A stretch of 64,000 nt of DNA from Zoroaster sp. YZ-2022. Taxonomy: Eukaryota > Echinodermata > Asteroidea > Forcipulatida > Zoroasteridae. Of the stretch, positions 13,815 through 23,078 are shown in pieces. The stretch covers positions 28,855,228 through 28,919,227 of the forward strand of contig CM055823.1 in assembly GCA_029582265.1 (NCBI GenBank), read 5' to 3'. Made by a program: the position numbers and the translations under genes. Below the pieces are notes generated by a model. That model was given only the letters and a program-made list of their open reading frames with translations. It was not told where the DNA came from and searched no databases. Position 1 is the first letter of the stretch; the number at the start of each line of letters is the position of its first letter.

Positions 13815-14204
13815 TTACTCTCCTAGGTTTAATGTTACAAATGTAACCCAAATTTTATAGAAATAGAAATAACCTCCACGAGTACGAGATGAATACTTGG
13901 GAGAAAAATCTCTCTTAACAATACTTTTTCCCGAAGAAGCGCATGCATTCGATCTTGAAAGAGAGGTATCTGTGTCGTAGATCTGACTTTCTACAGCTGT
14001 TTGAAATTTTTGATGTTGACTTTTATCTTGTGGCTTTACATTGATGTTTGATTCATCTGTGTGTGAAGGCGTCCTTTCATCCACTGTCACAGAAGGAAGA
14101 GTGGTTGTTGTTTCGCTTTCCTTGATTTGTGTTTCGCTTTCCTTGGGAATCGTGTCTCTATCTTTCTCCTCGGACTTCGAGGACGAAGTTTGACTTGAAT
14201 GCAT
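13815..14204 (-). pseudogene. Out-of-frame continuation of the receptor's repetitive tail
   Basis: A 129-codon reading frame overlaps the last codons of the receptor exon in a different frame. Its start (KSEEKDRDTIPKESE, then VDERTPSHTDESN) repeats the in-frame tail at about residues 1367-1410 (KDKDKEKFPKESE, then EDERTLSPTE). The homology is also visible at DNA level around the shared GAAAGGACG. A single-base frame change between 14160 and 14210 would fuse the two. The stop at 14158 may therefore be a frameshift, an assembly error or an allele, or the tail may simply end there. Not counted in the 1449-residue model. Confidence 0.5.
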
Positions 14205-16898
14205 CTATGCTTCGCTCCTTCGGTGGCTTGTCCATCTCTTCTAGGTTTTCTGGCCTTCTGATGTCTTTCTGAGACTCATCAAGAACATTGCCTTCAATTT
14301 CTGTGGGTGAAAGCGTCCTTTCGTCCTCTGGGGGAAGGACATCTGAATCTGTTACGAATGGCGCCTCACTTTCCTTGGGAAACTTTTCTTTGTCTTTGTC
14401 CTTATTCCAGCCTATGGATAGCAAATTTGGCATAATTTCCCATTTTCTCTCTGGCTTGGAGGAATTCATTATTGTCCGCAATGGATCCATGTTGCTAATG
14501 GCAATCTTTTTCAAATTTCGCATCTTTTTGAATTCTTTGAGAAAATCGTCCATAACAGTGCATTGTATTTCATCCATTGGGTTTAGTCCTGAAATATGAA
14601 ATATTTCAAGGAAATGTAAGTATTTCAGGATGGATGCAAGAAACTTGACAAATGATTCCGGTGGGTTACCATGAAGCAGATACAGTTTTTTCAGTTGTTC
14701 CCATGACTGATGATTCTCATGCAATCTTTCCCTGGCGAACTCAAACCCAGGAGTAGTTACTCTGTACAGGGACAGTCTGAGATCAGTCAGATTCTTGCAA
14801 GCATGCAGTGAGTTTGTAATTGCCACAAAAGCCCTGTCATCCAACTGCTTGTTTAGACGGAGATCCAGCTTCTTCAATGAGGGGAGTTCGTTCAACTTTG
14901 CGGCAAAGTTGCATATATCTTCTGATCTTAAAATTGTCCCTATCAGAACAATCTTCTTAAGCATCTTGAAACTAGGAAGACACCGAACCAACTTTTGTGC
15001 TGAACTCGAAGAGTAGCATTGACCATACTGTGACTGCATGACTTCCAGTAGACATGGAGATTGCAACGTCTGGAGGACACTAGTGTCCGACTGTTCAGAC
15101 AGGAATTCAGACATACCGCTGAGTCTTGACTCTACTCTCTCAAACAACTGTTTCATCGTTTCATTTTCATAATCGCTATCCTTTTCTTGTGATGCTTTGC
15201 TGTCAGTGTCTTTTAATGCACCAGGGAGAAAATACTCCAGATATTCTCGAAGCTCAGCCGAATGGTGTTCACCTATCCGGAACAACTCAATCGATTTGAG
15301 ATTTAAACGTTTTTCTGAATCTTTCTTCGCATGCTGCAGAAGGTACGTCAAAAGTTGCAGCTTATGACTTGAGATTCCAATTATACGGACCATCCCTCCA
15401 TCAAACATCGGACTGATCAGCTCAGAGCTATCACTCTTGCATTCCATATTCAGTTGGAGACACACCTCAACCATTTTTTGTACATGAAGTTCATCTCTCA
15501 GTGTTTTCTTTTGTGCACTAGTGATGTTGCTTATCAAATGTTGGATCAATGACGGATGAGCCGAATAACTGTACAATCCAGCAAATACTAATATGTTGGT
15601 CAACTTGGTCCAAATGTCTAGGGGCTGCAATTTGGTAAGCCAGTAAAACAGACTTTCTTCCGAATAAGTCAAGCTGATACCAGCACAAAGATCTTGAAAT
15701 ATCTCCAAGACAAAGTCAACCTTGCGTCCTTTCTCTGATCCAGAATCCCCATTCACCTCTTGATCAACACGAAGAATCCCTACTCTTATTCCATCATCCA
15801 AGACACCATGCCTATTCTCACCAGAATTTAAGAAATCTACTTTTGAATAGACCACTGCATCGTCACTGCACTTACAAATTCTCAGCAATGCTACCCTCCC
15901 AAGGTCTAACAGTAGCTTCAGTTGGTTTCCAGTCAGTTTGTTTCTAGGACTGGACATAGTGATAGGGTCAACAGGAGAACAAGTACTGTCATCTGTTGTG
16001 CAGTTAGCCCTATCAAACATGCACTTCACCATCTTGATAAACAGGTCACACATCGACAATTCAGGTCCAAAAACCTTCCCCTTTGTCCATATGGATAACT
16101 GACACAGAGCTGTAAGATTAATTGGCAGACAAGAAATCTCTGGTTGTAGAATGTGCTCATCTAAATATTCTTCAAGACTGGAACGGGTATCTGTGCTCTT
16201 GAGAACACTTCTGACGTATTTGTGAGCATTTGTTAAGCCAATTATATTGACATGGCGTATGTCAAACTCACAACAAATATCTCCCGCCTGCTGGCGTGTG
16301 GTCATCACTACTAGTGAATTCAGGAGACCTTGGTCTTTGATGACCTTCATGACACGTTGTATGTCGTCTTTGTCGTTACAATCATCAACAAGAATGGCCA
16401 CATCCATGGAGTGGTTTGCACAATATGAATTGATGGACTTGGCTGATATTTTGGTGTCTTTTGGAAGTATGTGTTTAACAACTGCTTCGCCAATGTTTTC
16501 AGATTTGATAAGGACACCCACTGGCAATACAAAGACTAACCTTGTCTGGCCCAACAGTGCGTTAGGCTGCTCCATGTACCTGTCAAAGACAAGCTTAGAT
16601 AGGAGGGCAGTTTTACCACTACCTGCCCTCCCTTCAATAAGAACATGCCTACTTTTAAATTGTGGAATACCGTCATCAAAGATCTGAGATTCAGACTCTA
16701 ATCGATATCTAACGGTACTATCTGCAGTATACACATTGATGAATAGTTCTAGTGGTGTATACACGGCCTGTATCGGTGCGTAACATGCGTCATCATCCTT
16801 CGTGACCCATGGTGTTATGGGAAGTCTTCCCCGTGTCCTCATCACAAACAGCTTGACCTCATTGAGCAGCTTCGTAACATCCAAATCTGGAGTAGGCT
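14158..16898 (-). other. Receptor cytoplasmic exon: NACHT NTPase, helical region, LRR-like repeats
   Basis: A single 2741-bp exon encodes residues 537-1449. After about 85 residues comes VLIEGRAGSGKTALLSKL, a textbook P-loop. The Walker B candidate is VAILVDDCND (702-711), where the residue after the first Asp is Asp rather than Gly/Ala and the last acid is Asp. A sensor-like VVMTTRQQAG follows at about 733-742. Further on, VDFVLEIFQDLCAGISL matches the NLR helical motif usually written FxHxxFQEhhA. Leucine-rich segments (LKKIVLIG, LKKLDLR, LTDLRLSL, LKKLYLLHG, LKKIAIS) lie between 1182 and 1340 and look like ribonuclease-inhibitor-type repeats. No CARD, death or PYD domain is recognisable between membrane and NACHT. 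Confidence 0.82.
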
Positions 16899-22800: not shown

Positions 22801-23078
22801 GTATTTATTTGCATCTGCAATCCTCAACTTAATTGAAGTGCGCCTGACCACAACATTAAATTAGCATTAGAGTTGGCTGTTTTCGTCAGCCAAATCGCAG
22901 AAAGAAATCACCAATTTCTTGTGAATTCAAATGAGCCTGTTTTGGGTTAGTGGATTTATTTCCGTCGATTGATAAAAAGTTAAGTCAAATTGAATTGGTT
23001 CTTACTTGAATCAGGTGGGCATAGTTCACACCTTGCCAGTCCCAACGTAACACAGAGAATCAAGAAATGCCGGTCCAT
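14158..23078 (-). CDS. Ig(x4)-TM-NACHT-LRR-like receptor, 7 coding exons, 1449 aa
   Basis: Predicted single-pass immune-type receptor with a STAND NTPase as its cytoplasmic part. Coding exons on the minus strand: 23078-23006, 22294-21956, 21220-20870, 20547-20218, 19848-19489, 17989-17834, 16898-14158. Every junction is GT-AG, every intron is phase 1, and the exon lengths sum to 4350 nt (1450 codons with the stop). Residues about 1-17 are a hydrophobic signal peptide (MDRHFLILCVTLGLA). Four Ig-like domains follow (about 28-136, 140-253, 258-363, 368-483), then a helix at about 492-514 with an LLRKR stop-transfer, then NACHT (Walker A GRAGSGKT at 626-633) and LRR-like repeats (1182-1340). Classical NLRs are cytosolic, so this reads as a surface sensor with an NLR signalling body. 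A noncoding first exon is possible: an acceptor-like run ends near 23105. Seen: frames, splice sites, motifs. Inferred: one transcript and surface topology. Alternative: separate Ig and NACHT genes, which the matching phases argue against. Confidence 0.82.
17467..17674 (+). repeat. LINE 3' stub and TAT microsatellite (about 61 units) in the last receptor intron
   Basis: ATGTGCGCGCTAAAAATCTG is the last 20 bp of the CR1/L2-type LINE; it is followed by an uninterrupted TAT array at 17491-17674. The poly-Tyr and poly-Ile frames are artefacts. Confidence 0.85.
18373..18553. mobile_element. Small inverted-repeat element with C-run and G-run arms
   Basis: Ends AATCCCGGCCAAAT and ATTTTGGCCGGGAT. 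The left arm contains a C11 run and CCTCCCCCGGCCCCC; the right arm has G5 runs separated by single bases (18484-18517), a G-quadruplex candidate. Lies between the fourth Ig exon and the TM exon. Confidence 0.6.
19055..19331. mobile_element. MITE with TACACTGTA...GGTGTTTAGAATC ends
   Basis: Left TACACTGTACAAATGGTG and right CACCATTTTTTACAGTGTA are inverted copies, 277 bp apart, inside a receptor intron. A TA target is possible. Confidence 0.65.
19489..23078 (-). other. Receptor ectodomain: signal peptide plus four Ig exons
   Basis: Each Ig-like domain is one symmetric phase 1-1 exon. Domain 1 (exon 22294-21956) has Cys51, Trp65 and DEGRYLC ending at Cys117. Domain 2 (21220-20870) has Cys164, Trp180 and RFWCHVF with Cys235. 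Domain 3 (20547-20218) has Cys284, Trp298 and a D-D-G-G-M-Y-S-C ending at Cys348; this exon lacks a start codon until near its end. Domain 4 (19848-19489) has an LTC cysteine, an IWSFG tryptophan and RYWCHVF. Domains 1 and 3 resemble each other (WYKG, SLV-K-V, ITY), and domains 2 and 4 share the WCHVF signature, so the order is A-B-A-B. N-x-S/T sites occur (for example NVT in domain 1, NYT in domains 3 and 4). V-set-like is the best description; ligand unknown. Confidence 0.8.
22396..22496. repeat. AT microsatellite flanked by a 13-bp direct repeat
   Basis: About 75 bp of (AT)n with one GATAT interruption sits between two copies of CAACAAGGTCGTAT (22396-22409 and 22483-22496), in the first receptor intron. 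Confidence 0.8.

Follow-up and report, generated by a model that had tools for sequence, protein, structure and literature searches.

The question raised by this locus is whether an immunoglobulin (Ig) receptor and an NLR can be encoded as a single chain. In the window, which is the whole 64,000-nucleotide stretch of Zoroaster sp. YZ-2022 analysed here (chromosome 8, 28.86-28.92 Mb), a gene of seven exons was found on the minus strand at 23078-14158; it joins Ig exons, a transmembrane (TM) exon and an exon for a NACHT domain and leucine-rich repeats (LRRs). Gene structure, domains, topology signals, copies, and relatives in three other sea-star genera were all observed, and the gene is likely to function as one of a family of membrane NLRs in sea stars, in which Ig binding would lead to clustering and then to NACHT-LRR recruitment and uptake, the Ig-TM part probably having been joined to the NACHT-LRR exon of a gene of the Death-NACHT-LRR kind.

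The coding sequence consisted of 1449 aa without internal stop, and all six introns were of the GT-AG type and in phase 1, so that the seven exons with compatible phases given in a preliminary description of this DNA were confirmed. On the minus strand, exon 1 (23006-23078) carried the start codon and the predicted signal peptide (residues 1-24) and was matched in two of four further units (92% and 96%) but not in the remaining two. Exon 2 (21956-22294) encoded the outermost domain, the V-set domain Ig1 (residues 25-137), which was identified by Pfam and a PDB match and occurred in two types in the array. It was followed by Ig2 in exon 3 (20870-21220; residues 138-254), Ig3 in exon 4 (20218-20547; residues 255-364; Pfam) and Ig4 in exon 5 (19489-19848; residues 365-484; genome search), all three matched in further units. 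Exon 6 (17834-17989; residues 485-536; hydropathy and genome search) encoded the TM helix and a juxtamembrane segment with YVMV. Exon 7 (14158-16898; residues 537-1449, including the stop) encoded the NACHT domain, a helical region, about six LRRs and a low-confidence tail, as assigned by Pfam, profile, AlphaFold2 and Foldseek. At 943 codons, the open frame of the NACHT exon was much longer than chance would give: in 50 random 64-kb sequences matched for GC content, the longest frame had 205 codons. The last intron, between the TM and NACHT exons, also contained the trinucleotide TAT repeated 61 times without a mismatch at 17491-17674.

Pfam analysis of the product revealed V-set (61.9 bits, cut-off 26), Ig_3 (44.5 bits, cut-off 30) and NACHT (27.7 bits, cut-off 26.7; residues 620-733), with ig, Ig_2 and I-set as further families in the ectodomain, while no LRR family was matched. 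The Ig1 exon matched Hepatitis A virus cellular receptor 2 (TIM-3) in the PDB (E 7e-8). Ig4 was followed by a single strongly hydrophobic segment (residues 494-513, mean hydropathy 3.34) and then by basic residues; the N-terminus had a hydrophobic, signal-like segment, the signal peptide being judged by eye, and the Ig domains kept cysteines of the extracellular type (by eye). The product has the signal peptide (by eye), V-type Ig domains (Pfam, PDB) and single TM (hydropathy) of an Ig-superfamily type I receptor, as well as the NACHT domain and Walker A motif (GRAGSGKT, 16609-16632, minus strand) of an NLR. These features support the predicted type I membrane topology, in which the Ig domains lie outside the cell and the NACHT-LRR body in the cytoplasm.

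Although silent in Pfam, the LRRs were seen when exon 7 was modelled with AlphaFold2: exon residues 631-812 (14461-15006, minus strand; block pLDDT 77-90) formed six strands that were spaced by 28-32 residues and alternated with helices. Foldseek analysis with this model gave NLRC4 as the top match (2.4e-15), and 34 titles among the 50 listed of 514 matches named an NLR; the remaining 16 of these 50 were entries for the oocyte lattice or for maternal complexes, both of which include NLRPs. A five-row profile including two Death-NACHT paralogues matched NOD2 at 2e-13, with the best stretch within the LRRs, while exon 7 alone as query gave NAIP at 3e-4 and NOD2 only at E 0.43. The modelled fold supports about six C-terminal repeats. 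The preliminary expectation of an Ig ectodomain, one TM helix and a NACHT-LRR body in one predicted chain was thus borne out; of its proposed HMM search, the Ig V-set and NACHT parts were positive and the LRR part was not. By profile and fold, the NACHT-to-LRR body resembles that of vertebrate NLRC4, NAIP and NOD2, which are cytosolic, have CARD or BIR N-termini and lack an ectodomain.

A whole-genome search with the NACHT exon, in which the best 50 of 256 candidates were scored so that the locus counts are lower bounds, placed at least 14 NACHT loci at C8:28.33-28.87 Mb (hits grouped by hand). Searches with the TM and Ig4 exons gave 15 and 25 matches, respectively, some of the latter being cross-matches to Ig2. 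Ig4 and TM lay upstream on the same strand in 11 of the 14 NACHT loci, with TM at 0.77-1.09 kb from NACHT; one of the 11 (28516532) was heavily decayed. This agreed with the expectation that Ig exons would precede a NACHT exon in further genes. Among the other three, 28370756 had Ig and TM inverted beside it, and 28605797 and 28641090 were decayed or a fragment. The four further units in the 200 kb read were colinear with the window gene; the TM donor and NACHT acceptor were preserved in all four, and the Ig3 acceptor AG was altered in two, with an in-frame AG six bases on. Judged from these sequences, the Ig-TM-NACHT fusion is no chance join.

Two irregularities of the TM exon were seen in the array. 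In L033 (about 3540-3745 and 9613-10000) and in the units at C8:28331622 and C8:28397607, its 3' end and splice donor were repeated as a minisatellite of about 56 bp, giving the YVMVDVE coding stretch and the donor several times in a row; about 6 kb of other DNA lay between the two parts of this array in L033. At C8:28365617-28365763 (minus strand), a TM exon was directly joined to a sequence like the signal-peptide exon (LCLTIGLCTSQAQSDVCPPEFG) and adjoined by an inverted NACHT fragment; this is likely a recombination joint between units.

Relatives were sought by three protein database searches. The first, with the NACHT exon as query (8000 proteins scored), gave seven proteins over threshold, namely six sea-star proteins with Ig and NACHT and one bare NACHT frame from ENA. 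The second, with a full-length protein profile (7638 proteins scored), gave 21 proteins: 19 from the sea stars Patiria, Asterias and Acanthaster (P0001-P0003, P0005-P0020) and two unrelated Ig proteins. The third profile gave six, five already found and one Ig protein without NACHT. A precomputed Pfam NACHT was present in 17 of the 19 sea-star proteins, and Walker A lay beyond the best TM candidate in 18 (candidates taken only from the part before the NACHT start). The 19 proteins share Ig domains, TM and the NACHT-LRR body with the window protein; they differ in being lineage-specific copies, P0020 having three Ig domains (by eye) and P0003 and P0006 being partial. Identity between the window protein and six of the sea-star proteins was 40-44%, and the alignment ran through the TM junction. 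Their source names give no function, and no description of the family was found among the literature matches listed, a coverage that leaves out most subscription journals.

The NACHT tree (27 rows, midpoint root, P0019 untrimmed) showed the six Zoroaster copies as one clade beside Asterias (100/99), with the Patiria and Acanthaster rows opposite. Sea stars thus possess a family that corresponds to the Ig-TM-NACHT receptor described in one sea cucumber; the family occurs in four genera, where it has expanded independently.

The sea-cucumber receptor, AjNLRC4 of Apostichopus japonicus (MN607598; Chen et al. 2021), contradicts the preliminary statement that no characterised receptor has this layout. 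It is reported to have extracellular Ig regions at 31-132 and 251-353, a TM segment at 483-503 and a cytoplasmic NACHT at 600-757, and was examined as a membrane receptor for Vibrio: at the surface its Ig region binds bacteria, and the protein dimerises and is internalised, with NACHT binding actin (PMC8699970). A later report describes binding of caspase-1 by the Ig region, leading to MLKL cleavage (PMC11932488). The window protein has the same order at nearly equal spacing (Ig1 25-137, Ig3 255-364, TM about 494-513, NACHT 620-733). AjNLRC4 is described as having no LRRs and a second TM at 776-795 (SMART); the LRRs of the window protein were also missed by Pfam. A second A. japonicus protein, AjNLR-new (PIK48001.1), likewise has Ig, TM and NACHT in one chain and is membrane localised; unlike the window protein, it has 1197 aa and two predicted TM segments, and a reversed topology is reported for it (PMC13133943). 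Anthozoan NLRs with 3-5 TM segments are also described in another report (PMC5094078).

By analogy with AjNLRC4, the most likely function is microbe capture at the surface, where clustering of the NACHT-LRR tails would bring about uptake and alarm. The signal peptide would direct the four V-type Ig domains to the cell exterior, the single TM helix would anchor the chain, and the NACHT-LRR body would lie in the cytosol. The Ig domains would bind microbial or damaged surfaces, and ligand binding would cluster the receptors; clustering would pack the NACHT-LRR tails, recruiting the cytoskeleton and signalling partners, and cargo would be carried inside as described for AjNLRC4. A juxtamembrane YxxPhi motif occurred in 12 of the 17 proteins scored versus 5.2 expected from shuffles (three of 20 were unscored, a landmark missing). 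Such an endocytosis motif on the cytosolic side of the membrane would fit internalisation, to which the excess lends weak support because the proteins scored are related. A reading of the juxtamembrane tyrosine as an ITIM was rejected, the window sequence not fitting the consensus.

Comparison of the Ig and TM exons over five units (ten pairs) gave a mean dS of 0.75 for Ig1, 0.21 for Ig2, 0.05 for Ig3, 0.08 for Ig4 and 0.06 for TM. Two types of Ig1 exon were distinguished: one comprised the window exon and four others, at 92-97% (full length), and six matches stood at 49%, of which the only two compared mutually were nearly identical. The introns flanking Ig1 were unalignable between the types, and the TM-NACHT part was 92-95% identical save one intron block at 84%. 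From these few units, recombination or conversion would be the simplest reading of how two Ig1 types come to be combined with almost the same TM-NACHT half. Such a tandem array, in which the outermost Ig exon takes two forms while the TM-NACHT half stays near-identical, is new here.

Exon 7 of the window copy was compared by region with five other copies. From the NACHT part (dS 0.036-0.045) and residues 341-640 (dS 0.024-0.046), dS rose to 0.10-0.13 in the LRRs and to about 1-2.4 in the tail, which was poorly alignable between copies. The C-terminal tail was longer in the copies C8:28424930 and 28332721, and its counterpart lay in another frame at 14171-13992 of the window (minus strand); the stop at 14158 was common to the window copy and the copy C8:28391100-28401422.

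The window Walker B (VDDCND) was altered compared with the canonical extended form (DGxDE), so in this one feature the protein departs from an NLR. VDDC or VDGC stood at this position in 17 of the 19 sea-star proteins, the pattern being unmatched in P0016 and P0017. The best NACHT matches outside the cluster, among the same best 50 candidates, were C4:1968594 and C2:3347254, with 31-32% identity. These two genes share the NACHT-LRR body; they differ from the window gene in a Death-domain exon upstream of NACHT (Pfam E 2e-11 at the C4 copy, the C2 copy being near identical by eye), in a canonical Walker B (DGYDE in both), and in that about 6 kb read upstream of each gave no match to the window Ig or TM exons. 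As the nearest non-Ig relatives found, they suggest an exon swap; both this finding and the altered Walker B are new here. The family probably arose when a Death-NACHT-LRR gene had its NACHT-LRR exon linked to Ig and TM exons. In that event the Ig-TM exons would have replaced the effector exon, and the altered Walker B would have come with or after the change. With this plausible origin from a cytosolic NLR, the origin of membrane NLRs and the triggering of NACHT by an extracellular ligand become testable in the accessible Asterias and Patiria.

At C8:39.67-40.24 Mb, six Ig1-like matches of 29-37% identity were found, where the NACHT-exon search gave none among its best 50 candidates; they may represent an Ig-receptor family that was the source of the ectodomain. 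About 4.5 kb from the Death exon on C4, an open frame (C4:1962594-1963061; L031:1-468, minus strand) matched Pfam GHMP_kinases_N (E 4e-16) and presumably resembles bacterial IspE; horizontal transfer, contamination or assembly error may account for it.

A further reading of the array is offered only tentatively. It would be a germline repertoire of membrane NLRs whose units swap parts, Ig1 dimorphism and fast LRR and tail ends being carried on a homogenised TM-NACHT core, with NACHT switched by clustering and not by ATP hydrolysis. Since the phase-1 exons are symmetric, units could exchange parts, and the altered Walker B would mean that NACHT is switched on by ligand-driven membrane clustering; the two-type Ig1 polymorphism would be old. 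If true, an NLR has been turned into a receptor working by crosslinking.

Several points weigh against a functional membrane NLR of the AjNLRC4 kind. We infer the splicing of the gene from genomic sequence, and likewise the expression, ligand, clustering and downstream signalling of the receptor. The NACHT score barely exceeds the Pfam cut-off, and the exon 7 model was poor overall (mean pLDDT 57.5); as its regions other than the LRRs are weakly modelled, most Foldseek TM-scores were low (0.2-0.35). The three protein searches, which were word-based and limited, gave no class besides sea stars and no sea-cucumber protein, and kinship with AjNLRC4 is suggested by layout, compared by description. 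Finally, nine of the 14 NACHT loci had stops or frame changes or were fragmentary (28484506 with a stop in the tail only), and dN/dS of the NACHT exon was 0.65-1.24 over 15 pairs, so constraint there is weak or mixed.

The last two points would fit a decaying pseudogene array in which the window copy has stayed open by chance and yields no functional protein, NACHT-exon dN/dS being near or above 1 in several pairs. By region, exon 7 gave dN/dS of 0.52-0.69 in the NACHT part, 0.70-1.59 in residues 341-640, 0.71-1.26 in the LRRs and 0.35-0.91 in the tail. However, five of the 14 loci had a near full-length, stop-free NACHT match, and when neutral change to the same depth was simulated, the first 800 codons stayed open in only 0.7-4.7% of 300 runs, yet the five copies tested were all open there, having been chosen from the 14 for being open. 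Mean dN/dS over units was 0.34 for Ig1, 0.31 for Ig2, 0.49 for Ig3 and 0.57 for Ig4 (0.92 for the short TM exon), and the same architecture is kept in other genera. Decay is thus considered unlikely for the window copy.

Two neighbouring genes, one for a short-tailed Ig-TM receptor and one, started independently, for a cytosolic NACHT-LRR protein, would be suggested by the four of 15 TM matches that had no NACHT downstream and by the read-through past the TM donor, which gives a short tail (VEGTWAGTRIL and a stop), so that a short form retaining the intron may exist. In the window, the frame was also open for 31 codons upstream of the 16898 acceptor and contained a Met, and translation could possibly start at another Met early within exon 7. 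The preliminary description had named an independent promoter and start of the NACHT exon among the findings that would speak against a fused gene. In all five other copies examined, the frame upstream of the acceptor had stops within 160 bases, and four of them had no Met between the last stop and the acceptor, one keeping it; a start in this open frame was rejected as not conserved. The joint occurrence of Ig4, TM and NACHT in most loci of the array also argues for one gene, as do the database gene models of other sea stars, which join both halves, in Asterias via a very similar juxtamembrane segment. Two separate genes are therefore improbable, and a single chain remains the preferred reading. 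A reversed topology with NACHT outside and Ig inside, as claimed for AjNLR-new with its two predicted TM segments (PMC13133943), is highly improbable here, as the signal-like N-terminus, the single strong TM with its adjoining basic stretch and the retained Ig cysteines (by eye) are those of an ordinary type I arrangement.

Elsewhere in the window, long tandem arrays were located at 52186-54145 (28 copies of 70 bp) and 59816-61011 (13 copies of 92 bp). An open frame at 46872-47417 (minus strand) was taken, by eye, to resemble a ubiquitin-conjugating enzyme, and those at 7631-8365 and 28268-28846 (both plus strand) presumably resemble retroelement proteins, again by eye.

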